Source: a virus. From it: a stretch of DNA of 34,288 nucleotides. Where the stretch lies: positions 1 to 34,288 of IMG/VR virus record IMGVR_UViG_3300023210_000115, one strand, 5' to 3'. The notes under the pieces are model-generated. The model did not search any database. It was not told the DNA's origin and worked only from the letters and a program-made list of their open reading frames with translations. This document shows, one piece after another, positions 10,799 to 34,037 of this stretch; positions within the stretch are counted from its first letter, which is position 1, and each line of letters begins with the position of its first letter. Both the position numbers and the translations under genes were made by a program.

Positions 10799-11058
10799 GA
10801 AAGTTACATTTGCAAGCATTCAGAGTGACAGATACCACAGACACCAACAAGGCATTGAGTAGTGCTGTGAAGCGTATCTATGATGATATTAACAAAATAG
10901 CACACGACCTCAATGAATCCTATGTTGATCCCAAGAAAGACCATCAGGGGTATGAAGGGCAAGTGAGGGTTATTGAAAAGAACGGGAAACAAATAATTCA
11001 ATTTAAAAAAAAGAAAGGTTGGACTAATGTCACAGTACCAACTGAAGGAGGAGAGTAA
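10795..11058 (+). CDS. Small basic protein after the nozzle gene
   Basis: This 87-residue protein starts at an ATGA overlap with the previous stop. The N-terminal half is helical (S-S-A-V-K-R-I-Y-D-D-I-N-K-I-A-H-D-L-N); the C-terminal half reads Q-V-R-V-I-E-K-N-G-K-Q-I-I-Q-F-K-K-K-K-G-W, a strand-turn-strand. The final G-K-Q-x-I-x-F-K-x-K-x-G-W pattern is common in small structural proteins found between tail and ejection genes of podoviruses. No function can be assigned. It is coupled to the next gene by TAATG. Confidence 0.45.
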   Translation: MRKLHLQAFRVTDTTDTNKALSSAVKRIYDDINKIAHDLNESYVDPKKDHQGYEGQVRVIEKNGKQIIQFKKKKGWTNVTVPTEGGE

Positions 11059-11543
11059 TGGGATTTTTCGGACCAGACCCAAATGACATCTATAAGACTG
11101 CGATGAATTTCGATCAAGTTAATACCGATTTTCAGAAGCAAATTGGACAGCAAATGTTTAATCCAAACAGTGCTTATAACCAGCGTCAATTGGGAGGTAT
11201 TCAGCAACAAGGAATGGACCAGATAAACAACAACTGGAACATGTCAAACAAACTTGCTGCAATGGGAAGAGGATTGGGTGCTCAGCAACGAGGGAATGCT
11301 TTTGCGTCACAGACAGGAGAAAGTATGTTTAAAGGTTTTAATGGTGCTTTGGGGCAAAATGCACAAATGGGCATGGGGCTACTTGGACAAGGACTCCAGG
11401 GAGACTCATCAAACATGCAAATGCAACAAGCTGCTGCAATGGCACAGGCAAACACGATGAATCAAAACAGTGCAAACCGAATGGGCTTTATAAATAGTGC
11501 AATGGGTTTAGCAGGACAGTTCATGCCTGTCCTAGGGATTTAG
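11058..11543 (+). CDS. Gln/Met/Asn-rich internal virion (ejection) protein candidate
   Basis: The protein has 161 residues and starts at a TAATG overlap after GGAGGAGAG. Composition is strongly biased: many Gln, Asn, Met, Ala and Gly, few charges. After an N-terminal F-G-P-D-P-N-D it is helical with repeats such as Q-M-Q-Q-A-A-A-M-A-Q-A and ends in a hydrophobic G-L-A-G-Q-F-M-P-V-L. Small Ala/Gln-rich helical proteins of this kind are typical of the internal core or ejection proteins of podoviruses (T7 gp14-like in size and bias). It is the first of four such genes in a row, all upstream of the giant protein. Confidence 0.55.
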   Translation: MGFFGPDPNDIYKTAMNFDQVNTDFQKQIGQQMFNPNSAYNQRQLGGIQQQGMDQINNNWNMSNKLAAMGRGLGAQQRGNAFASQTGESMFKGFNGALGQNAQMGMGLLGQGLQGDSSNMQMQQAAAMAQANTMNQNSANRMGFINSAMGLAGQFMPVLGI

Positions 11544-11544: not shown

Positions 11545-12426
11545 ATGCCAGCAACATTTCAACCAATGCAAACCAATTGGAACTTTGGGCAAAACATAGC
11601 ACAATCCATGAACCAAAGAAGAGCATTAGCCCTCCAGGACAAGCAACACGCTGAGGCTTTAGCTGCAAAAAGGGAACGAGAAGGTGTGTTGGATGCAAGA
11701 TATGAGAAATCATTGAATCGTCAAAACATGAAAGAGGGAATGGCGGGGTACGCTAGAGATTATATCCACAGTCAAATGTCTGATTTAGAGTTACCAGACA
11801 ATCTAAATCTTGAAGATTTATCAAACTCAGAATTGTTTAATTTCCTACAACGAGATAAGTCTGATTTACGAAAAGGTGCTATTGATTCTTATATGGATGA
11901 ATCAAACCTTTCACCGGCTGACAGAAAAGCTTACTACGGTATGTTGAACACACAGGTTAATGACCAACTATTAATGGATGTTATGGCGGAACAGGGAAAT
12001 AAATTTCTTGACCCAATCGCCAATGCGTTCCAAACTAGACACGGCGATGACTTTGACCAAGGCGATATTCAAGAAGCGTTCAAAAGGATGGAGCCATCGC
12101 AAGTTAGAGCTTTGCAAAATATGACATCAAACGATATTCACGATGAGGGTACATGGAGTTCATACTTACCTGAGGAATATAATATCCCAGGAGCAAAAGA
12201 CCTCTATTATGAGGGATTAGAAAAAGGTGGCTGGGGTGATGCACTGCAAGCATGGACAAATAAGATTCAGTTTAACGCAAACAACTTATTTAAAGGGGTA
12301 AGCGACAAGGAGCAAAATTGGAAAGAGTTTGGAGAAAGTGGGCAAGAAAAATATGATGATTTTGATATGTATGGCGAAAAAGGCAGTCTTATGGATAAAT
12401 GGGGAAGACCATTATTGAGTTTTTAA
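11545..12426 (+). CDS. Internal virion (ejection) protein candidate
   Basis: The protein has 293 residues, with an ATG one base after the previous stop and a purine-rich GGGATTTAGG before it. The N-terminus W-N-F-G-Q-N-I-A-Q-S-M-N-Q-R-R-A-L-A-L-Q-D is followed by a long charged helix (to ~70), a pattern frequent at the start of phage ejection proteins. The rest is mostly helical and acidic with no catalytic motif. It lies in the same cassette as the Gln-rich, Ala/Gly-rich and peptidoglycan-binding proteins. The role is inferred from composition and context. Confidence 0.5.
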   Translation: MPATFQPMQTNWNFGQNIAQSMNQRRALALQDKQHAEALAAKREREGVLDARYEKSLNRQNMKEGMAGYARDYIHSQMSDLELPDNLNLEDLSNSELFNFLQRDKSDLRKGAIDSYMDESNLSPADRKAYYGMLNTQVNDQLLMDVMAEQGNKFLDPIANAFQTRHGDDFDQGDIQEAFKRMEPSQVRALQNMTSNDIHDEGTWSSYLPEEYNIPGAKDLYYEGLEKGGWGDALQAWTNKIQFNANNLFKGVSDKEQNWKEFGESGQEKYDDFDMYGEKGSLMDKWGRPLLSF

Positions 12427-12438: not shown

Positions 12439-13341
12439 ATGTATAATATTTATGGTGAAGCACTAAAACAACCGCGGGAGCAATTAATGAATCCGCAAGC
12501 TTTACAGATGCAGATTGCATCAAACAAGATGAAAATGACCCAAGATAGTGCAAGGAAACTTGTTCGTAAGTACAACGAAAGACCAAAGAGTTTAAGTGGT
12601 GAAGAGGTTGTACGGGCAATGGAAGCCGCCCAGATGTATGGGTGGAATGTTAGTCGTGGTAGAAAGAAAGATAAAACTGGCGTTGACGATGCTTTGTTTG
12701 GTCTTATTGGCGGTGCTGTAGACGGAGCATTGCTGGGGCTTGTACCCGATAAGTGGTACAGTAACAGAAGAAATAAAGGATGGGGTAAGGCTGGTAGGCT
12801 TGGTGGAGTAGCAGCATCATTAGCTATACCTGGTGCTGGATTCCTACAAGGAGCAAAAGCTTCTACTAAGCTCGGCAAAGCTGGCTTGTGGGCAGCGAGA
12901 AACATGACAACAGCTGGCATGGGTGCTCAAGCAAAAAGAATGATTGGTGCTGGTACATTGGCGGCAAGGTCAGCAATGGCAGGGCAACAAGGTGCAGCTG
13001 GAAGTGTAAAGCGAGTTGCACAATTAAGGCGGTTGGCTAAAGGAGCTGGCGGATTTAAGCCAGCATGGCAACAAGCTGCATTCGCAGGAATGAAAGATGC
13101 TCCAATAGGTAGTGGGCTTATGAATCTTAATGGATTAGGTGTTAAGGGATTAGAAACAACCAAAGCTATGGAAAAGATTGCACAAGCAAAAGCCTTGTTA
13201 ATGAAATATGGTGCTGGGGCTGGCGTTGCTGGTGCTGGTATATATGCACTGGGTCATCAAGGAAAAGATAATAGTTATGACCCTTATGAAGAAATGATGG
13301 CAACGCAAATGCCACAAATGCCACAAATGCCAGGGATGTAG
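12439..13341 (+). CDS. Ala/Gly-rich ejection protein with membrane-active segments
   Basis: This 300-residue protein starts after AAAAAGGAGATTAA. The first ~80 residues are a charged helical region. Then come glycine-zipper-like hydrophobic stretches: about residues 88-108 (A-L-F-G-L-I-G-G-A-V-D-G-A-L-L-G-L), ~118-138 (L-G-G-V-A-A-S-L-A-I-P-G-A-G) and ~255-272 (A-G-A-G-V-A-G-A-G-I-Y-A-L). The middle is Ala/Lys/Arg-rich. The C-terminus ends in three Q-M-P repeats. Such proteins in T7, P22 and N4-type phages insert in the host envelope during DNA ejection. Membrane insertion is an inference from sequence; the family is not named. Confidence 0.55.
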   Translation: MYNIYGEALKQPREQLMNPQALQMQIASNKMKMTQDSARKLVRKYNERPKSLSGEEVVRAMEAAQMYGWNVSRGRKKDKTGVDDALFGLIGGAVDGALLGLVPDKWYSNRRNKGWGKAGRLGGVAASLAIPGAGFLQGAKASTKLGKAGLWAARNMTTAGMGAQAKRMIGAGTLAARSAMAGQQGAAGSVKRVAQLRRLAKGAGGFKPAWQQAAFAGMKDAPIGSGLMNLNGLGVKGLETTKAMEKIAQAKALLMKYGAGAGVAGAGIYALGHQGKDNSYDPYEEMMATQMPQMPQMPGM

Positions 13342-13342: not shown

Positions 13343-14155
13343 ATGTCAAGAATACAAGGGGTGCCAACAAATTTTGATTTAACAGGAATAGGTGCTTTTA
13401 ATGTAGAGACTGATGGGGAGCGTGGCTATAACCACCTCAACAGACAGGGAGATATGTTTCGTGCACAAGCTGATCCAGATATACAAACTGGCGGCGGAAG
13501 CAATGTTTCACCACATCAAGTTACGGCAAGTCAGTTTGAGGATATAAGAGGAGTGTCAAATACGCCCGAATTCATGCAATATACACCAATGGAAAACGCA
13601 CTCCCCGCACAACAAGGTCCAGGTTTTTTTGGTAGAATGTATAACACAATCGATAAGGGGTTGGGTGGAATCTTACCAGGTGGTCAAGATTTCAATGAAG
13701 GCTACCTAAAAAAAGGATATGACGCAATTGGTGGATACGAAGGGATAGATAAGACCGTAGGTGGCGTTTTACCAGGTGGTCAACCAGTTGGAGAGGGATA
13801 CATGAGCAAGGGTTATAATGCTATTGACCAAACCATGGGCGGTTATTTGCCAGGTGGTGTGGAACGAGGCGGTGCACCTGTACAAACTCAACTACAAGCA
13901 GCACCTTCTCAACAACACCCATATAGTCAAAGTGGATGGGGGAGTGATAAAACCGATGCTCAAATCAGAGAAATGCAAAGACGGATTGGGACTAAGGTGG
14001 ATGGTATGTGGGGTCCAAAGTCAGAAGCTTCCCTGAGTGCTTTTCAAAACAATGAGCGAATGGCACAAAGATCAGATTTAGCAGACAGGGATAATCCAAT
14101 GACACGCAGAGGTTTTCGTGTGTCGGGTGGCGATGCCCTACCTACGATGATGTAG
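13343..14155 (+). CDS. Ejection-cassette protein with C-terminal peptidoglycan-binding domain
   Basis: This is a 270-residue protein. The N-terminal half is low in structure and Gly/Gln-rich. Three imperfect repeats centred on I-D-x-x-x-G-G-x-L-P-G-G lie at residues 103-115, 135-147 and 161-172, separated by G-Y-x-x-x-G-Y-[DN]-A-I spacers. Residues ~207-235 read Q-I-R-E-M-Q-R-R-I-G, then V-D-G-M-W-G-P-K-S-E-A-S-L-S-A-F-Q, the core of the PG_binding_1 domain, which binds cell-wall peptidoglycan. The domain is followed by ~35 residues. The start is two bases after the previous stop. A role in holding or guiding the ejection machinery at the cell wall is inferred; no hydrolase motif is visible. 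Confidence 0.65.
   Translation: MSRIQGVPTNFDLTGIGAFNVETDGERGYNHLNRQGDMFRAQADPDIQTGGGSNVSPHQVTASQFEDIRGVSNTPEFMQYTPMENALPAQQGPGFFGRMYNTIDKGLGGILPGGQDFNEGYLKKGYDAIGGYEGIDKTVGGVLPGGQPVGEGYMSKGYNAIDQTMGGYLPGGVERGGAPVQTQLQAAPSQQHPYSQSGWGSDKTDAQIREMQRRIGTKVDGMWGPKSEASLSAFQNNERMAQRSDLADRDNPMTRRGFRVSGGDALPTMM
13649..13858 (+). repeat. Three imperfect coding repeats (I-D-x3-G-G-x-L-P-G-G)
   Basis: The three copies start at 13649, 13745 and 13823 and each encodes I-D-[KQ]-x-x-G-G-x-L-P-G-G. Unequal spacing (32 and 26 residues) and diverged codons show this is an old protein-level duplication rather than a fresh DNA repeat. The copies lie just upstream of the peptidoglycan-binding domain and likely form a Gly/Pro-rich stalk. 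Confidence 0.6.
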
Positions 14156-14210: not shown

Positions 14211-14230
14211 TACACAACCAAAGGAGTTTT

Positions 14231-17200
14231 ATGTACACACCTCAATCAAACATAGCATACACACCACAAGAAACAAAGCAATATATTCGCTTTTATAGAA
14301 AAAACCCGAGAGCTTTTTCACATGACCAAGTTAGGTCGTTAAAACAACACGCACAACACTACAACATCTCTGTAGATGAGGACGAGTTAGATAATACCTT
14401 CAGTCCGCTTCGTGCCATTAGAAGTGCTGGAGAAGGGTTTCTCTCGGGCTTTACTACAATTAACATAGGCGATCAACCCAAGAATCAATATGAAGGTATT
14501 GCAAGGTCAATAGGACAGTTGGCTGGTTTCGTGGGGTACTTACCATCTAAACCCATTTCTGCAGCAAGCAAATTAATGGGTGGTGTGGGTTGGATGGATA
14601 GAACAGCTGGTGTTTTAAAAGCCGCAAAAGGTTCGTCTATCCCTATGTATGGTGCTGGTCAGGCTGAAGCGCTTGCGGGTATTGCTGCGAAAAAACTCCT
14701 TGTGAAAGGAACAGCGAGCAAGGTTAATGCGGTAAAGTCGGTGTCCAGTTTCTTGTCAAAAGAAATCCCCACCGATATGCTAAAGGGTGCTTTTCACATG
14801 GGAACTGCATCAGCTATTAGTTCGTGGCAGGGTGGCGTTAAGGAAATGGCAAATGCTTTTGGGCATGGAGCCGTTACGGGTACTGTCTTTAGAGGTGTTG
14901 GTAATGTGGAATCAGGATTGGGTGAAACTATTGACCGTGGCCTACGAATGACGGCTATGTCACTACACTCAGGCTTACCATCAACAATGCACGGAGCTAC
15001 GACAGAGGAGCAGGTGTATGAGTATCTACTAGGGGCTTACTTTGGATACAAAGAAGGTCCAGCTTATAAGCGTAATGCTGGTAGATATGTAAATGATTTA
15101 ATAAAAGCAGGTAAAGACGCATCAACTGCTGGGACTGGAGTTGGTTTTGACCAACTATCTACTAAGGCAAAGGCGGAAGTCCCTTTGATAGTAAACAAGA
15201 TTTTCGGACTCACTGACCGTCGTAATTCTATGATAGAGCAGATAGCAGGTAAGTTTAAAATACCACTCATCAGGGCGGAAGAAGTCTACAATGAGTATCG
15301 TGCTGTTGCTGAGATGAAGCATGAGGTTATGCAGAAGACAGGGGATGAGGTGGTTGCTGAGGGGATTGCAGCACGACTCAAAAAGGGTGAGAAGAACCTT
15401 ATTCCTAATCTTACAGAACTTCAGGCATACAACGATGTTGAGGGTATAGAAAATCTAACGAGTGGTGTTGATAGGTATGTAAAGCAACACACGAAATACT
15501 GGTCAGCTAACCCCGAAGCAACAGCTGGTGAGTTAAGACAGAGGGCATTGGATGTCGGTATAAAACTCCAACACACATACGAGAAAGTTGTTGATGAACA
15601 AAAGAAAAATGGGAGAATAGTAAAATATTCAACCGACGGTAAAGCTAAACCAGAAGATGTTGGTTATACATCATTATCTGATTATGTTTCAGATTTCTTG
15701 GTAGACCAATACGGAGAAGAACCCTTTAAGCCTGATTCAGATAAAGGTAAAATATGGACACAAAAAGGAATCTATGCTAATGGTAAACACAATAAGCGTA
15801 TGATTAATATGTTTGTCGGCTACGGTCGACGTGGACCAGAAGGAGACTTTTCCAACAGTATAGAAGGCACAGAATTTGAAATCGGTGACGGTAGTCGTAT
15901 GTTCAACAAGCTTGGTAATCAAATAGGAGTTACATCACCCCCTGAATTCATGGATGAGATTTTTAATACTGCAGAAAAAAGATGGATGGAAAATGGTGGA
16001 GGTTACGAGAAGGGAGACAAAAGACCGCAGGGGACTGTTTATTTAGATAGTGTAGTTGTAAGTAGATATGGTAAGGTGAAGGAAGTTAATGCTTATGATT
16101 TAAATTCAGAAGAACGAGCAGTTGTTTTTGGTGAAATGGATAAAGCGGGATATATTTACGAGGGTGGTAGGGGTGATGCCCAAACAATGCGCTTCGTACC
16201 AATACATCCTGAAATTAGATATGGAGTTGGTAATAACGCTAAACGCCTAATGAAGATGTTTGGCGGAGTTGAAAATATCCACGAAAAACAACTACGCGGA
16301 TTTTCTGAATTTGCCAAGTCGAGGGGCAAAGATGTATTAGGATTAATGCCATCGCAAATAAAGACAGTCAGGGGTCAGCGTAATTACTTAAATAAAGTTA
16401 TGGATAAGTTTCCAGGAGTAAAAGCTGCTTATGACAAAGCTATTGTTTCAAATGCATTATATCTAAAAGACATGGCTGGTGTGGGTAGTCTCAAGGAATA
16501 TTTCAAGGCTGATGGCTTTATTAAGAATGCCATTGAATATAACAAAAGGCAAGCCATCTACAATACAGCTGGATACACAGGGGATATGAATCTCGCAAAA
16601 GGTGAGTTTTATGAACACGAAGGTGTTCCTGTGTTGCGTGTTTTGCGCGTGTTTGATGAATCGGTGGGTGTAGATCAAAAGAAACTACATAAAGGTAGCT
16701 CTGTATTTGATTATATGGAGGCAACTGACGGAGGTACGCTCCAGACGGAGGAAACAGGTAAAGCACTTGCATACATTACGGGTCAATCATTCGAGGGTAA
16801 ACATAAAGCCAACGTTAGGTTTCTGGGTAAAGAAGGACGTATTCTACAGAAAGATATGTTTCACCTACCGCCAAAAGGCATGAATAAATTCATGACCAAT
16901 AGTGGGATTGATTTAATAGTAAGAGAATCAGGAACTAAACAAAGGGGAAATAGTCCCCTGTATAAAATGAGGCGACTAGCTCCCGTTGGTGGTAACGAAG
17001 ATATAGCTATATACGATTCACGAGGACAACGGGTAGTGTCAGGATATGCAGTTGATTATGTCCCCGTATCATCAGTAAAAACAATTATGTCCGAAACACA
17101 TAAATTAAAAAATACAAATAAAACGATTGCTCCGAAACAGATGTTTACACAATTAGGACATAGTGAAAATATGGATACTATGTTTAGTGACCTTATCGAG

Positions 17201-20200
17201 GGTAGTCTGAACGGAACAACTAAAGCCAATAAAACAATAAGTGACTACTTAATCAATAAAGACCCAGCCCTAATAGAGCCTGTTCTCGAAAATCTAAACG
17301 ACATCAGTATGGATTTACTGGGACATGTATTAAATGTTCCTGGTGCCGAGAAATTAGCATCTCGTGTTTTAATGAAAATGATAGATAAGAACTCTAATTA
17401 TGTTAGATCCATGTATGATGCTGGTGAGTTGAGCAGAGAGGAGTTTGTTCAGTTTGTGGAGATGGAAGAGATATATAAGAATCCAGCAAAACGCCAACTG
17501 AATATGGATAATGGAAGCATGGCTATGACAACACACGCGAACACAAATAAGTATGTTGATCAGGTTATAAAGCAATATTATTATTCACGTGCCACAAACC
17601 CTAAGCCTGGCAATGGGACAAAGCAAAGAACTCAGGTATGGGATAGAGCTTTAACTGAAAAAGTAGACTGGGACGGAGCTGTTGGAGATGTTATTTCCGC
17701 TAAAGGAGAACACCTTCCAGAGGGTTCGGTTCTTAAAAAGATATACGGAGATAAGAATCCAGATAGATTCGTATTTTTCAATGAAGCAGGGAGGCATCAA
17801 AAATATACCTTCTCTGGGTCAGAAATGAAATTAGGTAAAATATGGGAGGACTTTACAATACTTATGAGGTCTGGTAAGGCATCAGAAAAGGTACTTACAC
17901 CCTATAGAAAATTTTTTAAAACATTAAACATAAGAGTTCCAATGTCTGCGGCATCTGCTGCACAAACGCTTTACTTTGGGGGCTTTACAGGAATCAAGGG
18001 ACAAGGGGTATTGCTTCATCCTCGCGTGATGATTCTACTTGATGGTGCTGACCATGATGGTGACACAGCAACTACATTTTTTGGTGGGAGAGAAATTCAT
18101 AAGAAAGGCTTAGACTCAGAATGGTTTAAGGATTTTGAGAAAGTTGAAGAAGAGTTTTATGAAACCGACCCCAATACAAAAATGAGAAGACTTAGTAATC
18201 CAAAATCAGATGAAATGATAATGAAGTATACATTGAGTGATCCAAAATATATGGAGTTAATGCGTAGCAAGTGGGGTTTGGTTGATCCAGGAGCACGTTA
18301 TAGGGCTGCAGAGGGAGCAGCACAGGGTCGAGGTGTCCTTGGACCTACCGTAGCTGCTAAAGCTCAACTACTGGCTGCTTTTGACCACCTCGTAGGCAAT
18401 AAGATTGATTTCATTGACATAGTTGAGCCTAATAAAAAAGGGGCTCCTGCTGTACGCCATGTCTTCTCACCAAAGAAAGATTCTTTAGCGAAAAACAACT
18501 TCATAAAAGAAGCACGAGCAATGCTTTCATTTGCTTTTGACCCAATGAATCAGGGTGGATTAAGGAGTGCTGATTATTTTTTTAGGGCTATGTTTGGTCA
18601 ACTTTTTGATCATGTTGGTTCATTCGATGTGATGACAAAAGAAAATATGGCAAAACCGCTTGGTACGATAGACACAAAGCACCTTCGTAAACTTCCCGTA
18701 GTGTCAGATATGTCTCATGTCAATAAGCTTGTGTGGGGTCGTGATGCAAATGGTCGAAAGTTTCCATTTAGACAATTGCGAAGATTACTGAAACACTCAT
18801 ACAGGAATATTCAAGGTAAAGAATTTAATTCATTTTACTCAAAACTGGGTAATGTTGTCCAGGAATCAAATCTTGATGTTGATATCTTGAGTAAGTTTAA
18901 TATGAAAAGGCTAGAGTCATCTATTGAGAAATACAATATAAGTGTTGGTGCTGTAAGGGATAAAGACGGTAAACGGATAAAAGGTGCTAACAAAAATAGC
19001 AATGAGCTCAGGGCGATAACTGGATACGATAGTTCTAAAATTAATTTTGAACCAGGCTCACCCATTAGAAAATTACTTGAAAGCAATATATGGCATGACT
19101 CTGTTTATGAAAAATATTTAAGTGCTATCGACCCAAAAGATAAATTATACGAAGAACCATTTACTATGCAGTATGTAGATACAAAAGTAAAGGCTAAGGA
19201 TAGAAAATATAAACCACGAAGAGTTACATTGAAAGATCATATTCTAAGCAAGGAGGGTCTTTTGGGTTATGAAAGAAAATTACGCAACCCAAGAGAACGA
19301 GCTAAAGCTCTTGACTCTGCCGAGCGTCAAGCTAGAGATTGGTTGGGACAAGTGGTGTCTGACATGGCTTCATTAGATTCAATAAAGACTGAGTTCTGGA
19401 GATTTAAGAATGAAGCACAAAGAAATATAGATATTAAAAACAGTGAATTTGCTCCCGTTATCCAGAAACTAATGCTAAAAGCTGACGAAATAAAGGGACT
19501 TGCGTACACAAAAAATGCACACGATATTGACCCTAATGCAAAGAGATTTTCTCGTAGCGAGATTGATGATATGATAGGAGGATTCTTAGAATCCACATTT
19601 CCTAACAATAAAATGACTAAGGCTAGAAAGCATATGAGAAATATCTTTGACCAGATAATGTTAGGTACTCTAATGCATAAAAAAACTGCTGAAGAATTAG
19701 GCTTACTTAAAGACGGAAGACACTACAAGACACAACATACGAGAGTTGGTTTTCAGTCTGCCAGTATTAGTGATGAAAGTTTACAAAAACATGTAAATAA
19801 TTATAGAAAAAGATTTGCCGAGGTGATACCAGAGGTTAAACCATACGAAGAGAAGAAAGCTATTGTGCAATCTAGCGAGGTTACAGACCTAAAGAGTATT
19901 GTCGAAAGCAAACCTATAGTGAGGCAACAGTTATCCGAACCAGGAAAAGTTATTCAGGAGAAGAATTTATCACCTGAACAAAAAACATACATGAACGATG
20001 TAATGTATCGTGAAATTATAGGCGGGGTTGAGGATATGTCTACAATCCCCAAAGACATAAAGAAGGTTGTAAGTTATGTTGTTGAGAAGTTAAATAAGTT
20101 TAACCCCGAGTCTCATCCATGGGAAAAGGGTAATAACTTGAATGACTTTATTCGTAGCACAGTTGGGAAGGATTTAAATAAGTTGGATTATACGGACATA

Positions 20201-23173
20201 AGATATCTAAAGAATTGGTTTACCGACTTAGAAATAAAAAATGGCTTTATACACAAAGGTAAGACACCCGATTTCTCCGAAGGTGTTCCTTTGTCTAAGT
20301 GGCATTACATATTTTTTCCCAAAGCTGTTGGTGAGAACCTAATGAAAGCGGGTTTTGAGTTAAAGTCTCAAGTGACAGCGTGGCAATCAAAACAAGGAAC
20401 CGTTATAGGTAAAGCTTTACAGCCCACAAACGTAATATCAGATATACAAAAGATAGCTGAAGCTACAGGTAATAGAAAGCGAAGAGCTTTTGAAGTCCTA
20501 AGCAAAAAGTTTAGTGATGATATTTATAATTTATCAGCAAATAATCCTGAGTTTGAAAACTTCTGGAGTATTGCAGCATTAGAAATGGAAATCGCTAATG
20601 GTGGATTAACTTATCAAGTAAAAGATTTAATAAACCCACGAGAGATATACGGTAGAAAGAAAACATATCTAGATAGATTTAGAAAAGTAGCTAAAGATAC
20701 AAATTGGCTAAAAACAAAACACGAGACATATAGAGTTGGTGGTAAGGGTGAAACCATGACTGGTCGTGAAGTGGTGGATTCTATCAAGGGTGTTATTAGA
20801 AGGTATACCGATATTGGTGGTAAGTGGATAACGGGTGACTCTGAAAATAATCTATTATCTCAATTCCTCGAAAGAGATACGACAAAAGCAAAATGGAAGG
20901 GTAAATACCCTTTAAAACTACACGTAGACGGAACACCCATGGTTAATTTTAAAATCAGAGGAGATAAGAAGTCATCCTACTATCAGTGGGCTTTAGATAA
21001 TCTCAATACTGCTGTTGAGGGTGGTATGGAGTTAGGGTTTGACGGTATGTCTGTCATTACTAGATCAATGCAAATGCAACAGATTAATGCTAACCTAGAA
21101 AGATTAAATAAAGCAAAGACTCAGGCTACAACCAAGACAGAAGCTGGTGTTATAAATGAAAAGATTAAGGAGCTTTATGGTGAAATTAGAAATATGCAAA
21201 AGTATAAAATCAAACCAACAGCATTAAGGGCAAGACAATTTTATTACCCACATATTAAAGCTGACGCAAGAATGGCAGCATCAGATTTGTTGGCTCGATA
21301 TAAAGATATTGATTTATCTTCACTTAGTAGTAGTGAAAAAGATATAGTAAAGAAAAGTTTAGCTACTGAATATCATATGAGTGTAAATGGCGTATACAGT
21401 CCTGTTGAGATGGATGTTATATTGAGAAGTAAATCACTCGGCAAGATACTAGGTGAGATTGCTGTTGAGAAAAACAGTAGCGAGGTTGCGGGTAATTGGT
21501 TTCGTGCTCAATATAAATTTGGAAATGCCCAGAGAAGAGAACATCACATTGCTGGTTGGGATCTCAGTTCTGATGCTTTTGTTAATTCATATATGAAGGG
21601 TATGATAGATAAGTATTTTTCTTCTCAAGCTCAGATTCTATCGGCCGCAAAGATAGGTGAATTCAAACACTTTGGAATGAATGGATGGGATAAGGGTATT
21701 AGTGCTGGATGGACAAACTACCTCAATGCTTTCACTCAACAGGTTTTGGGTAATCCAGTTAATATAGCTGACGAAGTCGCTAATGACCCTAAGATGAAAA
21801 TGAATGGTGTGTTCTCTCAATGGAGAGATAACCATGTAGCAAAAGTTATGCAAAAGGTTGCTGAGAAACTAAAACTAAAGAAAATTACTATCAAGGGGCT
21901 TAATGAAGTATCAGCAAACGATGTTGTTAAGTGGGCGAATGCAGAAGCACGGTATCAACTCGCAACACTCCTAGCTCATCCTAAGTCCTCCCTAAATAAT
22001 ATATTCGGTGGAACGATGCATACTGTAGAGAGTGTTGGATTGGGCAACTTCTTGAAGGCAAAGAACCTTTCTCACATAACGGCTGCAATAAGTCCTAAGC
22101 TGAAAACATGGGAAGATGTTAATAGTTGGCTAAAGGAACTTGGTATTCAGGAAGAGTTTCTCCGTAGTGAGTTAAACTTTAACCCAGCCTTTAAGGGTGT
22201 TAGGATGAAAAAAGCAGGAACTGAAATATTTAATCTCCTGATGAGTGGTAAGGTTAAGGAATTACCTGCTGTTTTAAAGAAACACAAGGTAACGGAAGGG
22301 ATGTTAGAGAAAGCTGGGTGGTTTATGCGTAATCCAGAGAAGATGCTTCGTAGGGATGCATTCCTGGCACACTATCTCCAGGCACTTGAAAATTTAGGTG
22401 GTAGTGTTGATGACCCTTTAAAAAATCCATACCTAATAGAGATAGCAAAACGAGGAGTTCAAGCTACGCAGTTTCTATATTCAGCTCCATTTAGACCTAT
22501 GTTTTCTAATACTGCATTAGGTAAGGTGGTAACTCGTTTCCAGTTATGGGCATGGAACTCAGTCAGGTTTAGGAATGATGTCATAAGAGAAGCAAAGCTT
22601 AGGGATTTTAGACAAGGTACTCCTGAGTTTGATAGATTTAAAAGAATGGCTATGATTGATATGTTTGTATTGGCTATGGGAAATGCCTTTACATATTCAT
22701 TATTTGAAACAGCATTACCTCAACCGTATGCATGGGCACAAGACATAGGTGATTTCTTATTTGGTGATACAGAAGAAAGGGAAAGGGCTTTTTATGGAGC
22801 TTATCCTGGTGTTTTTGCACCACTTCAAATGGCAACACCTCCATCAATGAGGATGGTTGGTCCTACAATAAATGCTCTCTATGAAAATGACTGGAGTAAA
22901 CTTGCAAATTATCATGTATGGACAATGTTTCCTTTTGGTAGAATCGGAAGAGATATGGTGGGGATTTATAAAAATCCTGGCATGATGATTGAAAAGACTA
23001 CAGGATTACCTTATAGGAAAATACCTAGATACAAGAACGAGTTAGCAAAAACTAACCCAAAGAGACATCATGCTTTTGGTATTGGGTATAATAAAAAGAT
23101 GCCAAAAAACAAATGGCTTGATGAAAGAATTGATAAGATAAAAGAAAAAGAGAAAGAAAAATCTATTGAATAA
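14231..23173 (+). CDS. Giant virion-type protein with a double-psi beta-barrel RNA polymerase signature
   Basis: I chose the ATG at 14231, after AAAGGAGTTTT, giving 2980 residues. Residues ~70-240 have ejection-protein-like Gly-rich hydrophobic segments (G-F-L-S-G-F-T-T; Q-L-A-G-F-V-G-Y-L; H-G-A-V-T-G-T-V-F-R-G). Near 1235-1285 it reads R-V-P-M-S, then G-Q-G-V-L-L-H-P-R-V, then D-G-A-D-H-D-G-D, with D1274, D1276 and D1278 matching the metal-binding N-A-D-F-D-G-D of RNA polymerase beta' and its L-H-P-x-V about ten residues before. A possible partner barrel lies at ~830-905 (T-D-G-G-T-L-Q-T ... R-E-S-G-T-K-Q). The C-terminal ~400 residues carry H-P-K-S-S-L-N-N-I-F-G-G and a conserved W-A-W-N-S-V-R-F-R-N-D region, duplicated downstream. 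It is probably packaged and injected with the DNA. crAss-like gp66 is the nearest known idea, but order and length differ. Confidence 0.65.
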   Translation: MYTPQSNIAYTPQETKQYIRFYRKNPRAFSHDQVRSLKQHAQHYNISVDEDELDNTFSPLRAIRSAGEGFLSGFTTINIGDQPKNQYEGIARSIGQLAGFVGYLPSKPISAASKLMGGVGWMDRTAGVLKAAKGSSIPMYGAGQAEALAGIAAKKLLVKGTASKVNAVKSVSSFLSKEIPTDMLKGAFHMGTASAISSWQGGVKEMANAFGHGAVTGTVFRGVGNVESGLGETIDRGLRMTAMSLHSGLPSTMHGATTEEQVYEYLLGAYFGYKEGPAYKRNAGRYVNDLIKAGKDASTAGTGVGFDQLSTKAKAEVPLIVNKIFGLTDRRNSMIEQIAGKFKIPLIRAEEVYNEYRAVAEMKHEVMQKTGDEVVAEGIAARLKKGEKNLIPNLTELQAYNDVEGIENLTSGVDRYVKQHTKYWSANPEATAGELRQRALDVGIKLQHTYEKVVDEQKKNGRIVKYSTDGKAKPEDVGYTSLSDYVSDFLVDQYGEEPFKPDSDKGKIWTQKGIYANGKHNKRMINMFVGYGRRGPEGDFSNSIEGTEFEIGDGSRMFNKLGNQIGVTSPPEFMDEIFNTAEKRWMENGGGYEKGDKRPQGTVYLDSVVVSRYGKVKEVNAYDLNSEERAVVFGEMDKAGYIYEGGRGDAQTMRFVPIHPEIRYGVGNNAKRLMKMFGGVENIHEKQLRGFSEFAKSRGKDVLGLMPSQIKTVRGQRNYLNKVMDKFPGVKAAYDKAIVSNALYLKDMAGVGSLKEYFKADGFIKNAIEYNKRQAIYNTAGYTGDMNLAKGEFYEHEGVPVLRVLRVFDESVGVDQKKLHKGSSVFDYMEATDGGTLQTEETGKALAYITGQSFEGKHKANVRFLGKEGRILQKDMFHLPPKGMNKFMTNSGIDLIVRESGTKQRGNSPLYKMRRLAPVGGNEDIAIYDSRGQRVVSGYAVDYVPVSSVKTIMSETHKLKNTNKTIAPKQMFTQLGHSENMDTMFSDLIEGSLNGTTKANKTISDYLINKDPALIEPVLENLNDISMDLLGHVLNVPGAEKLASRVLMKMIDKNSNYVRSMYDAGELSREEFVQFVEMEEIYKNPAKRQLNMDNGSMAMTTHANTNKYVDQVIKQYYYSRATNPKPGNGTKQRTQVWDRALTEKVDWDGAVGDVISAKGEHLPEGSVLKKIYGDKNPDRFVFFNEAGRHQKYTFSGSEMKLGKIWEDFTILMRSGKASEKVLTPYRKFFKTLNIRVPMSAASAAQTLYFGGFTGIKGQGVLLHPRVMILLDGADHDGDTATTFFGGREIHKKGLDSEWFKDFEKVEEEFYETDPNTKMRRLSNPKSDEMIMKYTLSDPKYMELMRSKWGLVDPGARYRAAEGAAQGRGVLGPTVAAKAQLLAAFDHLVGNKIDFIDIVEPNKKGAPAVRHVFSPKKDSLAKNNFIKEARAMLSFAFDPMNQGGLRSADYFFRAMFGQLFDHVGSFDVMTKENMAKPLGTIDTKHLRKLPVVSDMSHVNKLVWGRDANGRKFPFRQLRRLLKHSYRNIQGKEFNSFYSKLGNVVQESNLDVDILSKFNMKRLESSIEKYNISVGAVRDKDGKRIKGANKNSNELRAITGYDSSKINFEPGSPIRKLLESNIWHDSVYEKYLSAIDPKDKLYEEPFTMQYVDTKVKAKDRKYKPRRVTLKDHILSKEGLLGYERKLRNPRERAKALDSAERQARDWLGQVVSDMASLDSIKTEFWRFKNEAQRNIDIKNSEFAPVIQKLMLKADEIKGLAYTKNAHDIDPNAKRFSRSEIDDMIGGFLESTFPNNKMTKARKHMRNIFDQIMLGTLMHKKTAEELGLLKDGRHYKTQHTRVGFQSASISDESLQKHVNNYRKRFAEVIPEVKPYEEKKAIVQSSEVTDLKSIVESKPIVRQQLSEPGKVIQEKNLSPEQKTYMNDVMYREIIGGVEDMSTIPKDIKKVVSYVVEKLNKFNPESHPWEKGNNLNDFIRSTVGKDLNKLDYTDIRYLKNWFTDLEIKNGFIHKGKTPDFSEGVPLSKWHYIFFPKAVGENLMKAGFELKSQVTAWQSKQGTVIGKALQPTNVISDIQKIAEATGNRKRRAFEVLSKKFSDDIYNLSANNPEFENFWSIAALEMEIANGGLTYQVKDLINPREIYGRKKTYLDRFRKVAKDTNWLKTKHETYRVGGKGETMTGREVVDSIKGVIRRYTDIGGKWITGDSENNLLSQFLERDTTKAKWKGKYPLKLHVDGTPMVNFKIRGDKKSSYYQWALDNLNTAVEGGMELGFDGMSVITRSMQMQQINANLERLNKAKTQATTKTEAGVINEKIKELYGEIRNMQKYKIKPTALRARQFYYPHIKADARMAASDLLARYKDIDLSSLSSSEKDIVKKSLATEYHMSVNGVYSPVEMDVILRSKSLGKILGEIAVEKNSSEVAGNWFRAQYKFGNAQRREHHIAGWDLSSDAFVNSYMKGMIDKYFSSQAQILSAAKIGEFKHFGMNGWDKGISAGWTNYLNAFTQQVLGNPVNIADEVANDPKMKMNGVFSQWRDNHVAKVMQKVAEKLKLKKITIKGLNEVSANDVVKWANAEARYQLATLLAHPKSSLNNIFGGTMHTVESVGLGNFLKAKNLSHITAAISPKLKTWEDVNSWLKELGIQEEFLRSELNFNPAFKGVRMKKAGTEIFNLLMSGKVKELPAVLKKHKVTEGMLEKAGWFMRNPEKMLRRDAFLAHYLQALENLGGSVDDPLKNPYLIEIAKRGVQATQFLYSAPFRPMFSNTALGKVVTRFQLWAWNSVRFRNDVIREAKLRDFRQGTPEFDRFKRMAMIDMFVLAMGNAFTYSLFETALPQPYAWAQDIGDFLFGDTEERERAFYGAYPGVFAPLQMATPPSMRMVGPTINALYENDWSKLANYHVWTMFPFGRIGRDMVGIYKNPGMMIEKTTGLPYRKIPRYKNELAKTNPKRHHAFGIGYNKKMPKNKWLDERIDKIKEKEKEKSIE

Positions 23174-25206: not shown

Positions 25207-26076
25207 TTATAAGTCCATATGAACTATGATAGGGGTCTTGCCTTCCAGTAGGACTCCTATGTTTATTTGTGGTCTTGAGAACCATTTACCATAAGCAGCT
25301 GCATAGGTATTGTTATCCATGCCACAACCTAACTGCATAGCATAAGTCTTCCTATCAGAACCTACTTGATATTGAATATAACTCTTAGTGTGATAATGAC
25401 CTTGAATTACATTAACCATATCTTGTCTCATTCTATTATGAGCAACTCTACCCATTCCATGACACACAAGAGTATTATCGTCTATCCAAAAGTGTTCTGC
25501 AAACTCCCATTCTGGTACATCTAAAACCTCATCAACACTTCGTATCCACCGTTTTGATAAGCCAGCATTAAAAGCTTTGCGATTAGGAACATTGTCATGA
25601 TTGCCCAGTACCACTCGAGCAACTGGAAATGCTTCATAAAATTCCTGAAGTTGTTCGATAGCTTTATCCAGCTCTGCAGAAGCAGATAACCCATCAGGGT
25701 CAGTGTCGTGAAAACTACTATAGTGATTATCAATTAAATCTCCTAGGAAATACACTTCATCGCATTCCCATTTAATATACTGTGCTATACAGAACTCCAG
25801 AAAACCGTCTCTAACGAACGGGGCATGTAAATCTGGTATGAAGAGTATATTGCCTTTAGTTTTGCTCTTCACGGCTGTATTTGACCCCTTCACGGCAACA
25901 TTACTATTGTCGGGGTGTGCTACATGTCCATGGTTGTATAGAATTGTTCTTATCTGCCTAATGGTTAAATTCCAGTCTTTTGCTATTTCCGCTTGTGTCC
26001 CACCACGCTGATGCTCTTCAACAATTAAGTTCTGTATGTGATATGGAACAACCACTCGTGCCTTTATTTTCTTCAT
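25207..26076 (-). CDS. Metallophosphoesterase with N-terminal helix-turn-helix
   Basis: The protein has 289 residues; the ATG at 26076 has AGAGGAGATTT upstream. Residues ~14-50 form a helix-turn-helix (G-T-Q-A-E-I-A-K-D-W-N-L-T-I-R-Q-I-R-T-I-L) of resolvase/sigma-region-4 type, followed by a short linker. The rest is a calcineurin-like phosphoesterase with all metal ligands: D82 and H84 (D-L-H), G-D-L-I-D at 112-116, G-N-H-D at 158-161, H206 (C-H-G), G-H-Y-H at 226-229. Such enzymes hydrolyse phosphomono- or diesters, sometimes nucleic acids. The HTH fusion suggests a DNA-targeted activity. It is the last gene of the - strand operon and overlaps the preceding gene by 59 bases. The substrate is unknown. 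Confidence 0.85.
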   Translation of the reverse strand: MKKIKARVVVPYHIQNLIVEEHQRGGTQAEIAKDWNLTIRQIRTILYNHGHVAHPDNSNVAVKGSNTAVKSKTKGNILFIPDLHAPFVRDGFLEFCIAQYIKWECDEVYFLGDLIDNHYSSFHDTDPDGLSASAELDKAIEQLQEFYEAFPVARVVLGNHDNVPNRKAFNAGLSKRWIRSVDEVLDVPEWEFAEHFWIDDNTLVCHGMGRVAHNRMRQDMVNVIQGHYHTKSYIQYQVGSDRKTYAMQLGCGMDNNTYAAAYGKWFSRPQINIGVLLEGKTPIIVHMDL

Positions 26077-26302
26077 AAATCTCCTCTAGTTTATTTTGAA
26101 TCATTTCCCATCCGTCTTCTCCCGAATGAGGGATTATGCAATTAGTACAATCTTTCATACCTTTAAATAACACATAATCACCACCACAATTTTTGTATGT
26201 ATATAGCGGACAATAGCAGAACATGCAGTTGTATTGTCCTTTCACTCCAGTATGACAGGGGTAATAATCACACTGTCTATTGGTGAAGACTTTGTAGCTC
26301 AT
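26018..26302 (-). CDS. Cys-rich small-domain protein (PF04071-like)
   Basis: The ATG at 26302 lies in an ATGA overlap with the ThyX-like gene's stop, giving 94 residues; a GTG five codons upstream is the alternative. The core reads C-D-Y-Y-P-C-H, then Y-N-C-M-F-C-Y-C-P-L-Y, then C-G-G, then K-D-C-T-N-C-I-I-P-H, which matches the pattern I know for the cysteine-rich small domain (probable metal-binding) found in bacteria and archaea. About 40 mostly acidic residues follow. The biochemical function is not established. It sits beside ribonucleotide-metabolism genes, including a cobalamin-dependent enzyme. The 3' end overlaps the phosphoesterase gene by 59 bases in another frame. Confidence 0.75.
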   Translation of the reverse strand: MSYKVFTNRQCDYYPCHTGVKGQYNCMFCYCPLYTYKNCGGDYVLFKGMKDCTNCIIPHSGEDGWEMIQNKLEEIYEENKGTSGCSISHTELNC

Positions 26303-26859
26303 GTAATTAAACGCCACTCATCTAACTCTTCTATCCAAGCTGAGAAAGTATCCCACTCACCTAACCTATGGTTCTTTCTTTGCTTGTAGATTGTCTTGAG
26401 TTGCAGGAAGTTAGTTATAACTCTACCCTTTAGCTCTAAGCCCATTGGTACATTATAGAGTATCCTATTCCAGATCTCTTTCTTTGTGATACCACAGGTC
26501 TCTTTCTCGTGTTGTTCTATTAACTCATTTAGGAAGTTAATAGTCCTTCGATTAACATAAGTGTTACAGATCTCATCTAAATCTAACTTGAGTAAACTAT
26601 GCATCTTACTAGTACTACTTACTATGTCTACAAAATGATAACGCATAAATTGCATCCACCAAGCCTGACTCGCTGTTACATCAGCACTTACAGTTATTCC
26701 TTTTAGAAAAGAGTCGTGTCCACTTCCGATAGGGGCGTGAGCGAGCTTTATAGCCCGCTCCCTGTTCATCGTTGCTGTCTTGTCTTTGTTTTCGTGTGGG
26801 AACCCCGAAGCTCTTATAGATTCTCCGAATCCACTTACTACCAAATCTCCTATTATCAT
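26299..26859 (-). CDS. Phage protein resembling flavin-dependent thymidylate synthase (ThyX-like)
   Basis: I chose the ATG at 26859, which overlaps the ribonucleotide reductase stop (ATGA) with GGAGG upstream, giving 186 residues. Residues ~67-87 read W-W-M-Q-F-M-R-Y-H-F-V-D-I-V-S-S-T-S-K-M-H, which can be placed on the ThyX signature (Q-x-x-R-H-R-x-x-S-x-N-E-x-S-x-R), and ~160 reads T-N-F-L-Q-L-K-T-I-Y, like the N-x-R-x-L-x-x-F-L-x-L-R of ThyX. The second Arg and the Asn-Glu of the signature are changed, so activity is uncertain. I recall this protein type as a widespread phage hypothetical with S-G-H-D-x-F-L-K-G-I. Neighbours (reductase, dUTPase) fit a role in making dTMP. The fold call is inference. 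Confidence 0.55.
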   Translation of the reverse strand: MIIGDLVVSGFGESIRASGFPHENKDKTATMNRERAIKLAHAPIGSGHDSFLKGITVSADVTASQAWWMQFMRYHFVDIVSSTSKMHSLLKLDLDEICNTYVNRRTINFLNELIEQHEKETCGITKKEIWNRILYNVPMGLELKGRVITNFLQLKTIYKQRKNHRLGEWDTFSAWIEELDEWRLIT

Positions 26860-28484
26860 AATCCGCAGATACCTCCACTGCATTTCTCTTCAACTTCGTC
26901 AAAGATTACTCCCTTGTACTGTTTAGCTACATTGTAATCCACAGGTGTCAATGGTTGCCCACCTCTCGCACCATCAGGATACACAGTCATACCTCGTAAA
27001 CCGTGATAGTATTTTAAAAGAGTATTGGCTAAATCCACAGCAGTTTCTTCGTTATTATGTTCTGTACCCCAAGCAGGTAGATTAAGTGTACTTGATATAG
27101 CATGATCAACATACCTTTGAATATTGTATTGAAACTTAATCCTTTTCTCTGGATTCAATGCCAATGTGTATGCAGTCTCTATCTCTTTTGGGTTTAAATC
27201 ATATTTATTAATAAGGGACTCTGCCGTAGCATCTATAACATATTGGTATTTCCACATGGTTCCATCTTGTAGATACCTTCGCTTGTAGGCAACTGCGAAC
27301 AATGGTTCAATACCCGTGGTTGTCGATGCCATAATACCAATAGTACCAGTGGGAGCAATAGCCCTGTACTTAACAGGACGACTAATGTGAAGCTCGTCAC
27401 AAAAAGAATTCGCAGAACTTTCACTAATATCCTTGTACTCTTGTAACCATGTTTCAAGTTCGTGTACAACCTCATAACCATAACCCCTTGCGAGTAACCA
27501 TTCGTGGATACCCATTAATCCGAGACCTAATCTTCGGTTTTTCTCTCGAGTTTCCTCAACTTTTTCGTAGGGTAGATCTCCTCTGATTGAACCACAAACT
27601 AAGAACTTTGTAGATAGGTCTACTATGCGTTTCATCTCATCGAGATTATCAACATTTGCCATATTGATAGACCCCAAATTACAAACATCACTATCATCCT
27701 CACTCGTAACCTCTGCACAAGCATTCCTAAGAGTCTCTTTACCATCAAATTTAAAGTTGTATGAATGACCAGGTTCACCAGTCTTACACATCCTTCTTAT
27801 TGATTCATACCAAATCGGTGGTGTCTTACCTTGCTTAACTTTCGACATAAATAAATCATCCCAGTTAATGCTAATGTTTGTCATATCTAAAGTTGCGGGA
27901 AAATTAAAGTCAGCTTCCTTTAACGCTCTCACCACTGATGTCCAGTTTTTAGCATACATAAATTCGTGAATGTCTTTATGTCGCCAACTCAGAGAGGCAT
28001 ACATCGCACTTCTGCGACTACCACCCTGCATCACATTTCTACCGACCTCATTGAGTATTTTCATTAACGGTAATGGACCAGATGATTCTCCACCAGACCT
28101 AATAAGTTTACTACCTGCTGGTCGTAATGCAGAATAGTCAACTCCTATACCACCCCCGCTCATAAGAGCGAGAGTAGCATTTGAAACTAATTCAGCCCAA
28201 CCTTCTCGAGTATCTGTTGCCCGCATCAGAAAACAGTTGTTGTAGAAACTAACATCTCTCCCTGCGTAATATAAGTATCGTCCGCCTGGAATAAACTTCA
28301 TGGTCGCAATAAAGCTTTCTATGGCATTTAAATCTGCGGGTGATAGTAAAGGGTCAGTTGTACCCTTACGGTCCCCACAGACGTCATTTACCACCCTGTG
28401 AGCTAAATCTTTCCATGTTTCATCCTTTCGTATCGCATACTTCTGTTTAAAAATGGTTAGTGCGAAAGGGGTTTTGAATTCCAC
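26856..28484 (-). CDS. nrdJ: Adenosylcobalamin-dependent (class II) ribonucleotide reductase
   Basis: The protein has 542 residues. A GTG start at 28484 is supported by AAGGAGG six bases before it. The enzyme reduces ribonucleotides to deoxyribonucleotides with a thiyl radical generated from coenzyme B12. Visible motifs: N-N-C-F with C84; G-G-G-I-G-V-D-Y-S-A-L-R at ~110-121; N254-x-C256-x-E258, the radical site, followed by C-N-L-G-S-I-N; A-P-T-G-T-I-G and E-P-L-F-A; and the C-terminal redox pair C-S-G-G-I-C. Size and the absence of a small-subunit gene or an ATP-cone favour a compact class II enzyme over class I. The start overlaps the preceding gene by 38 bases. It supplies dNTPs for phage replication together with dUTPase and possibly the ThyX-like protein. 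Confidence 0.9.
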   Translation of the reverse strand: MEFKTPFALTIFKQKYAIRKDETWKDLAHRVVNDVCGDRKGTTDPLLSPADLNAIESFIATMKFIPGGRYLYYAGRDVSFYNNCFLMRATDTREGWAELVSNATLALMSGGGIGVDYSALRPAGSKLIRSGGESSGPLPLMKILNEVGRNVMQGGSRRSAMYASLSWRHKDIHEFMYAKNWTSVVRALKEADFNFPATLDMTNISINWDDLFMSKVKQGKTPPIWYESIRRMCKTGEPGHSYNFKFDGKETLRNACAEVTSEDDSDVCNLGSINMANVDNLDEMKRIVDLSTKFLVCGSIRGDLPYEKVEETREKNRRLGLGLMGIHEWLLARGYGYEVVHELETWLQEYKDISESSANSFCDELHISRPVKYRAIAPTGTIGIMASTTTGIEPLFAVAYKRRYLQDGTMWKYQYVIDATAESLINKYDLNPKEIETAYTLALNPEKRIKFQYNIQRYVDHAISSTLNLPAWGTEHNNEETAVDLANTLLKYYHGLRGMTVYPDGARGGQPLTPVDYNVAKQYKGVIFDEVEEKCSGGICGL

Positions 28485-28782
28485 TAATGTCCTCCTTGAG
28501 GGTATCCTCCAGCCTTAAGTATTCATCATAACACCCCGCAATCCACTTGTAGTTTATTAAATCTTGAGCTGTATCCAATAAGCCATCTGGTACTACCTTC
28601 TCACTTAATCTATTGTCGCTTATAAATTTCAATCTAACCTTCTTCATTAAAGTCATCATAGATGCCACATCCTGTGGAGATACCTTCTTATCTAGGAAGG
28701 CACTCCACTTAGTAGCGATTTCTGGAAAACTATTCCCATACTTTTTTTTCTTATGTAATATCTGGTCTAGATTAACTATCAT
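28447..28782 (-). CDS. DUF6378-like small protein
   Basis: The protein has 111 residues, starting at an ATGA overlap with the preceding stop. The pattern K-Y-G-N-S-F-P-E-I-A-T-K-W-S-A-F-L, then S-P-Q-D-V-A-S-M-M-T-L-M-K-K-V-R, then D-G-L-L-D-T-A-Q-D-L-I-N-Y, matches what I know of the DUF6378 family of phage proteins (Y-G, W-x-x-x-L, D-V-x-x-M-M, K-x-x-R, D-x-x-D-x-x-x-Y). The spacing of acidic residues on helices is reminiscent of MazG-type nucleotide pyrophosphatases, but that is a guess. Its place among nucleotide-metabolism genes would fit. Confidence 0.65.
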   Translation of the reverse strand: MIVNLDQILHKKKKYGNSFPEIATKWSAFLDKKVSPQDVASMMTLMKKVRLKFISDNRLSEKVVPDGLLDTAQDLINYKWIAGCYDEYLRLEDTLKEDISGIQNPFRTNHF

Positions 28783-28973
28783 GTGATCTCTATATAGCTT
28801 GTATCGATTTTATCTAACACTCTATAATCACTATCATTCTTCTCTAATGCATCCATTGCCATATCGATACAGTAGATTGATTCAGTTCCATCCGATGGGG
28901 AGATGCTCTCCCTTATTGCCTTCTTAGCCTTATAGCTAAGTGGCGGATTGTATGCTACTTTATAGATATTCAT
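28779..28973 (-). CDS. Small protein of unknown function
   Basis: This 64-residue protein has its ATG inside the dUTPase stop (ATGA), and its own stop overlaps the next start in the same way, so it is a translated member of the operon. It starts M-N-I-Y-K-V-A-Y-N-P-P-L-S-Y-K-A-K and contains one Cys and an acidic C-terminal half. No family is recognised. Confidence 0.6.
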   Translation of the reverse strand: MNIYKVAYNPPLSYKAKKAIRESISPSDGTESIYCIDMAMDALEKNDSDYRVLDKIDTSYIEIT

Positions 28974-29401
28974 CTTCCCGTACTCCCAAAACCACTTTCA
29001 CCTCGTTCTGTTTCACTTAATTCGTGAACAAGTTCCCATTCAATAGGTTTACCATCAAAAGCAACCATTTGAAACATACGGTCTCCGTGGTTAGTGAAGT
29101 ATACATCAGCTATGTCATTGTAATCGCAGAGAGCTATAAGCTCTCCACGATAATCTTTATCAATCAAGCCAATACTATTAGCCAGTCTAAATTTAGACTT
29201 ACCTAAACTACTTCTGGGTAATATCATATATGCACCATCGGGTTCACATTTGATGCCTAATTCAAACTTAATTTGACCATTCACTACTTGCCACGGTTTA
29301 CCAACCATAGGGATATCCAATCCCGCATCAGTAGAGTTATGGAATTTCTTCGCCCACATACCTCTCGTTTCTGCATTTAAGCAGTTAATTTTTATCTTCA
29401 T
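28970..29401 (-). CDS. dut: dUTPase (dUTP diphosphatase)
   Basis: The ATG at 29401 (143 residues) is preferred over the TTG one codon earlier. All five trimeric dUTPase motifs are present: A-G-L-D-I in motif 1 (~27-31), P-R-S-S-L-G-K-S in motif 2, G-L-I-D-x-D-Y-R-G-E-L in motif 3, R-M-F-Q-M-V in motif 4, and R-G-E-S-G-F-G-S-T-G in motif 5 at the C-terminus. The enzyme hydrolyses dUTP to dUMP and pyrophosphate, keeping uracil out of DNA and supplying dUMP for thymidylate synthesis. It overlaps the ClpP-like gene upstream by 17 bases. Confidence 0.93.
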   Translation of the reverse strand: MKIKINCLNAETRGMWAKKFHNSTDAGLDIPMVGKPWQVVNGQIKFELGIKCEPDGAYMILPRSSLGKSKFRLANSIGLIDKDYRGELIALCDYNDIADVYFTNHGDRMFQMVAFDGKPIEWELVHELSETERGESGFGSTGR

Positions 29402-29909
29402 CAAGAATATCCCGTAGTCTTTTTGTGTTTAAGTAAACATCTTTCCCATTGCAAATCTTTAGGAGTTCATCGTCGGTTAAATGCTTTTTGTAAAATAGAC
29501 CCATATCAGCACTCATCTCTTCCATGATGTCTGTATACATAAAGTAGTCAAAGGACTCCCTATCCTTTAACTCTCGTGAGATGAGCTCTTTGGTGCCTTC
29601 ATGGACGGTTGCAAAGCAATAAGGCATTACCATCTTCTCACCCCTAAAGTCCACAAAGATCTTAAATGCAGCAGAGGAGATCTGGTGAAAAGCAGCAAGG
29701 AACACATTATTCTGAACCTTATTAAGGTAGTCTAGTAATATCTGTGCATGAGCCAAAGACCCTCCTGTGCTACTGAAATACACGAACATCTTAGCTTCTG
29801 GATTTCTAACCACAAGTTGTTGGATACCATCCATTAGTTTCTCTATTGTTTCACTGGTTAATTCAAAATCAAATACAGCTATATCGTCTATTTCTTTTAT
29901 CCCAATCAC
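29385..29909 (-). CDS. ClpP-like serine protease
   Basis: The protein has 174 residues and starts at a GTG overlapping the stop of the small membrane gene (GTGA), with AAGGAG seven bases upstream. It has the ClpP/crotonase fold pattern: S-S-T-G-G-S-L at ~46-52 (oxyanion-hole Gly pair), Q-I-S-S-A-A-F with candidate nucleophile S79, and A-T-V-H-E-G with H103. The third catalytic acid is not obvious. Phage ClpP-like enzymes usually process head proteins and are encoded near the capsid; here it is in the replication operon, so it may act on host or replication proteins. Whether it forms rings cannot be told. Confidence 0.75.
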   Translation of the reverse strand: MIGIKEIDDIAVFDFELTSETIEKLMDGIQQLVVRNPEAKMFVYFSSTGGSLAHAQILLDYLNKVQNNVFLAAFHQISSAAFKIFVDFRGEKMVMPYCFATVHEGTKELISRELKDRESFDYFMYTDIMEEMSADMGLFYKKHLTDDELLKICNGKDVYLNTKRLRDILDEDKN

Positions 29910-34028: not shown

Positions 34029-34037
34029 ATTTCCTCC

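Follow-up and report, generated by a model that had tools for sequence, protein, structure and literature searches.

Does a giant protein encoded beside the ejection-like genes of a phage contain an RNA polymerase (RNAP), and would such an enzyme enter the host together with the genome? Among the relatives of cellular RNA polymerase, single-chain, two-barrel polymerases are the simplest. The window analysed here is the whole of IMG/VR record IMGVR_UViG_3300023210_000115 (34,288 bases), in which a first-pass annotation had read a catalytic RNAP signature and proposed a polymerase injected from the virion.

The giant gene and its predicted catalytic signature

The frame of the giant ORF extends back to a GTG at 14201 (2990 aa), while an ATG at 14231, located 4 nt past an AAGGAG, is the likely start as judged from the sequence. 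Residue numbers are GTG-based unless stated, ATG-based numbers being lower by 10. The gene and its main parts, all on the plus strand, are as follows.

14221..14226, +, AAGGAG ribosome-binding site of the giant gene, from the sequence
14231..23173, +, giant protein of 2980 aa, candidate virion-ejected RNA polymerase (ORF, ATG with AAGGAG, layout shared with relatives)
14798..15070, +, Gly/Ala-rich conserved N-terminal region (conservation block 201-300)
15998..18640, +, RNA polymerase core as modelled, residues 600-1480 GTG / 590-1470 ATG (AlphaFold2, Foldseek)
17933..18064, +, catalytic signature RVPMS...LLHPRV...GADHDGD (sequence, shuffles, conservation in 41 relatives)
18050..18064, +, Asp triad D-H-D-G-D, with D1274/D1276/D1278 (ATG numbering) as predicted Mg ligands (41/41)
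19958..23170, +, all-helical C-terminal half (low-confidence helical model; residues 2700-2950 strongly conserved)

The Gly/Ala-rich region may possibly serve in ejection or assembly, and the helical C-terminal half is presumed to be a packaging or ejection part; a hydropathy scan of the giant protein detected no membrane segments. The gap ahead of the gene holds a GC-rich hairpin without a T run (GGGGGATCAC-GAGA-GTGACCCCC, 14178-14212). Beyond the gene, 23201-23710 encodes a partial copy of the C-terminal end of the giant protein, matching residues 2803-2948 at 60% identity, with a TTG start 27 nt past the giant gene stop.

The first-pass annotation described RVPMS, LLHPRV and GADHDGD in a protein of 2980 residues, and both the length, when counted from the ATG, and the position of all three elements proved correct: the Arg of RVPMS is R1235 (ATG numbering), and the Asp codons of the triad lie at 18050, 18056 and 18062. 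Taken alone, DxDGD is weak evidence, because it turns up in 717 of 20,000 shuffled versions of the giant protein and also, as DFDGD, in a second window ORF (2251-3564), a structural-operon protein that serves as a decoy. The full R-x-P ... [LIVM]HP ... DxDGD pattern was found in none of the 20,000 shuffles.

Conservation was counted over 41 non-redundant full-length relatives, in all of which R1245, P1247, H1273 and D1284/D1286/D1288 (GTG numbering) are retained; loss of the triad among homologs, which had been named beforehand as grounds for abandoning the polymerase reading, was thus not observed. Some relatives were retrieved by a pattern that includes DxDGD, while those retrieved by two patterns outside it carry DxDGD in every case. 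The middle His of DHDGD is confined to the window protein, with Leu in the other 40 of 41, and block 1251-1300, with 23 of its 50 columns conserved at 95% or more, is the most conserved 50-residue block of the protein among the 41 relatives. D1274, D1276 and D1278 (ATG numbering) would accordingly be read as binding Mg.

Relatives and predicted fold of the core

The motif region has relatives on more than 130 virus contigs. Among IMG/VR virus contigs, the motif region as query matched three other contigs, whereas the motif alignment matched 138, of which 80 were kept. The 41 members share 19-35% identity with the window protein, and complete relatives are mostly 2,800-3,400 aa long, with the same layout as in the window and D[LHN]DGD near residue 1,100-1,770. 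A distant relative of 3299 aa (L096, CALMES010000041.1) comes from a contig placed in the bin of a Peregrinibacteria genome, which may be a provirus, a phage contig or a case of mis-binning.

Searches of Pfam, PHROGs and PDB sequences with the window protein returned no match, and tblastn against 50,697 annotated phage records gave weak matches only, such as Marine virus AG-345-L05 (E 0.2). Profile comparison, of the kind that the first-pass annotation had recommended, gave several matches. At LHPRVM...GADHDGD the family profile matched Lactococcus 1706-type RNAPs with E 1.7e-5 and a score of 45.3, against 23.5 for the best of 60 column-shuffled controls, and across 57 columns spanning R-V-P to D-x-D it matched crAss RNAPs (E 0.0027, with a score of 33.8 against at most 20.5 after shuffling). 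P23-45 gp64 and gp96 matched weakly in the same register (E 0.009 and 0.076), and one relative matched Pfam RdRP at DLDGD with E 0.002-0.005, under the curated cut-off. Searching the PDB with profiles built from 7 or 41 relatives, on the other hand, yielded nothing relevant, and hhalign of the whole core against single gp66 or gp96 sequences gave no useful match. Sequence similarity to known RNAPs is limited to a short stretch, which counts against the polymerase reading.

An AlphaFold2 model of residues 600-1480, built from the 41-sequence alignment, reached a pLDDT of 82.1 and a pTM of 0.83. When compared by Foldseek with 350,542 PDB chains, it had a single match at E<=0.001, namely 6vr4 (E 1.6e-9, probability 1.00), so that the predicted fold agrees with the two-barrel RNA polymerase anticipated by the first-pass annotation. 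At 0.43 by query length, the TM-score to 6vr4 is moderate and counts against the polymerase reading. The non-significant matches that follow are mostly chains of other two-barrel RNAPs: P23-45 gp64, bacterial beta', ASFV RNAP and eukaryotic RPA1/RPB1. Among the predicted viral structures of BFVD, 17 matches passed 0.001, including crAss giant proteins as well as members of the family itself. The C-terminal half of the giant protein served as a control: its model, which is of low confidence, matched no PDB chain at E<=0.001. The following parts were assigned within the core.

16541..16549, +, invariant N-K-R (N781 K782 R783) ahead of the first barrel (41/41)
16607..17086, +, putative beta-type double-psi barrel DPBB-B, residues 803-962 (model strands, residues conserved 41/41)
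17768..18193, +, beta'-type double-psi barrel DPBB-A (model strands; profile matches at DxDGD)
18287..18397, +, bridge-helix candidate, a 37-residue helix (1363-1399) behind DPBB-A (model helix 764-800)
18482..18604, +, trigger-loop candidate, a helix pair around DPMNQGGL (model residues 829-869)

The N-K-R resembles F-F-K-R of phi14:2, with a weak hhalign match to the crAss set (E 0.12). Within the putative DPBB-B, D843 G844, K869, G879, K884 and K913 (GTG) are conserved in 41/41, the Lys residues stand in the expected order, and profile matches are weak (E 0.12, 0.46); the order of the parts, the fold match and the weak profile match together suggest that block 803-962 is a beta-type barrel. 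Behind DPBB-A, conservation of P1363, R1366 and G1376 (each 41/41) and R1377 (40/41), as well as D1447 (41/41) and P1448 (40/41), accompanies the modelled helices, for which bridge-helix and trigger-loop roles are proposed.

Some relatives (L013, L011, L066, L056 and L077) carry enzyme domains within the polymerase protein, directly after the Asp barrel. L013 has cpYpsA/SLOG (E 2e-17) with a NADAR-like stretch, a DprA-like domain (best E 1e-41) probably belongs to L011/L066, and two members, probably L056 and L077, have a GNAT acetyltransferase. At positions 1327 and 1413 relatives show long insertions. Given the inserted enzyme domains, the giant protein looks like a carrier of injected effectors. 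One crAss RNAP protein is annotated as DUF1768.

Overall, the presence of a predicted two-barrel RNA polymerase in the giant protein is well supported, because the conserved motif, the fold match, the silent control half and the gene context concur.

Genomic setting and proposed role

The giant gene follows a series of ejection-like genes and faces a convergent operon, as listed below.

11058..11543, +, small protein of the ejection-like cassette, from its position
11545..12426, +, ejection-like protein of the cassette, from its position
12439..13341, +, ejection-like protein of cluster c29, whose relatives in G001, G006 and G008 immediately precede the giant gene
13343..14155, +, cassette protein with a peptidoglycan-binding-like stretch (residues 186-239 match endolysin PHROGs, E 1e-4)
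25207..34268, -, convergent minus-strand operon (RNR, dUTPase-like, ClpP-like, RuvC-like, primase-helicase, Sak4)

Relatives' contigs measure 30-55 kb. Six longer ones (50-55 kb) share a plan: terminase, portal and major head protein are succeeded by tail genes and a giant tail protein, then by the ejection-like proteins and the giant RNAP gene, and, usually after one or two further genes, by a convergent replication operon that includes primase-helicase, Sak4 and RuvC-like genes. The window covers part of this plan, with a first ORF that clusters with the major head protein, and both here and in the six relatives the giant gene sits in the structural/ejection module; synteny therefore backs the ejection-cassette setting claimed at first pass. 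The union of RNR, dUTPase-like, ClpP-like, RuvC-like and Sak4 genes in one operon of a small phage genome (25207-34268) is a separate observation.

In isolates, the terminase, portal and capsid matches stay under 30% identity and are not crAss-like, those of portal and capsid being to Vibrio, Pseudomonas, Roseobacter and Microcystis phages, with no crAss-like records named. Membership in Crassvirales was rejected on these portal and capsid matches and on contig sizes of 30-55 kb rather than 90-100 kb. A Schitoviridae (N4-like) virion RNAP was also rejected, the predicted fold being two-barrel; no T7-type RNAP (PF00940) was found in 29 records, but the control genomes were silent too. A search of the window and six relatives for an early promoter, with exact 12-mers and degenerate 16-mers, found none that convinced, the one weak AT-rich pair in G001 being absent from the others.

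With a probability of roughly 0.8, we read the giant protein as a virion RNAP that is packaged, ejected and used to transcribe the minus-strand replication operon, the presumed early target (25207..34268), before phage protein synthesis. Packaging, ejection and early transcription are suggested by gene context and by analogy with phi14:2 gp66, P23-45 gp96 and N4 (PMC10172136, PMC10770324, PMC12633501). The enzyme would belong to the single-chain, two-barrel class and form part of the last large protein encoded by a T7/P22-like ejection cassette. Stored in the capsid with the ejection proteins, it would travel down the short tail together with the DNA or in front of it, probably in a partly unfolded state, and refold in the host. 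There, D1274/D1276/D1278 (ATG) of one double-psi barrel would hold Mg, the conserved Lys residues of the second would hold RNA/NTP, helix 1363-1399 would act as bridge helix, and transcription of the replication operon by the ejected enzyme would precede the making of phage proteins.

The polymerase could instead be made and act inside the infected cell, its helical parts serving assembly or regulation, as many two-barrel phage RNAPs, including P23-45 gp64 and YonO, are non-virion enzymes (PMC10770324). We consider this unlikely, since in the window and the six longer relatives the core lies within a chain of about 3000 aa belonging to a late structural operon, the gene adjoins ejection-like genes far from the replication operon, and the RNAP that gives the best fold match, that of phi14:2, is virion-packaged. 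It is more improbable still that an ejected two-barrel polymerase mainly makes something other than early mRNA, such as replication primers or RNA on ssDNA/RNA during entry: the phage encodes its own primase-helicase and the nearest studied relatives are DNA-dependent transcriptases, even though the two-barrel fold includes eukaryotic RNA-dependent polymerases and the best Pfam match of a relative is RdRP. That the barrel is a degenerate structural domain devoid of catalysis is hardly tenable, the catalytic-type residues being invariant in 41 members as divergent as 19-35% identity to the window, and apart from the missing PDB sequence match no tool result favours it. A chance origin of DxDGD, or its place in a metal-binding loop that has no relation to polymerases, was rejected: common as the motif is, even in this window, the shuffles of the three-part pattern, its conservation and above all the fold match contradict it.

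Comparison with known systems

The first-pass suggestion of a system not previously described went too far, as two-barrel RNAPs in ejected virion proteins are known from crAss-like phages and P23-45, and N4 ejects a giant RNAP of the other fold class. The published record comprises a few virion two-barrel RNAPs, plus the N4 type. What is new here is the sequence-isolated RNAP family and its ~50 kb T7/P22-like phages. A literature search conducted mostly outside subscription journals found no paper on the family, although the supplementary survey of PMC10770324 may list relatives. The annotation libraries searched had left the family's contigs unrecognised, and its core has no PHROGs family. 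The finding suggests that many uncultured phages may begin infection without host polymerase and, with a two-barrel enzyme set among T7/P22-like ejection genes, makes it testable whether ejection and transcription are coupled.

As predicted for the giant protein, phi14:2 gp66 (PDB 6vr4; gp077 in KC821624) is a single chain with two barrels, and its R-x-P...DxD stretch can be aligned with that of the window family. It is a giant structural protein by MS and virion-packaged. Overall sequence similarity is absent, and the motif of gp66 is DFDIDK, so that the D-x-D-G-D of the window family is nearer the canonical form. phi14:2 is, moreover, a crAss phage of 100 kb, unlike the window's group, whose portal and capsid were not crAss-like in our search.

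The orf75-type RNAP of Lactococcus phage 1706 provides a sequence link, its IHPKV...SGADFDGDTAYVIP aligning with LHPRVM...GADHDGDTATTFF of the window (E 1.7e-5), over 25 columns only and with the 1706 type rather than YonO itself. Proteins of the 1706 orf75 and YonO types stand alone at about 900-1030 aa, in contrast to the giant protein.

In Thermus phage P23-45, gp96 is a two-barrel RNAP fused to the tail tape measure protein and delivered with the DNA (PMC10770324). The DFDGD/DYDGD motif of gp96 and gp64 agrees with the D-x-D-G-D of the window family, and gp96 lies inside a giant virion protein, as proposed for the window core; P23-45 is, however, a long-tailed siphovirus, with the RNAP N-terminal in a 5002 aa tape measure. 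In addition, gp96 is flat and lacks a clamp, whereas the modelled window core has a long helical connector between its barrels. The non-virion gp64 matches the modelled core weakly in fold (E 0.24).

N4 and other Schitoviridae, which are short-tailed, eject a giant virion RNAP of ~3000-3500 aa with their ejection proteins (PMC12633501). We tentatively raise the idea, itself rather doubtful, that a T7/P22-like lineage of about 50 kb independently reached the N4 solution, with a two-barrel RNAP of cellular type in the ejectosome and transcription drawing the genome in. Both giant proteins comprise an N-terminal part, an RNAP core in the middle and a C-terminal part, but the N4 core has a T7-like single-subunit fold as opposed to the two-barrel fold predicted here: the arrangement is alike, the enzyme different.
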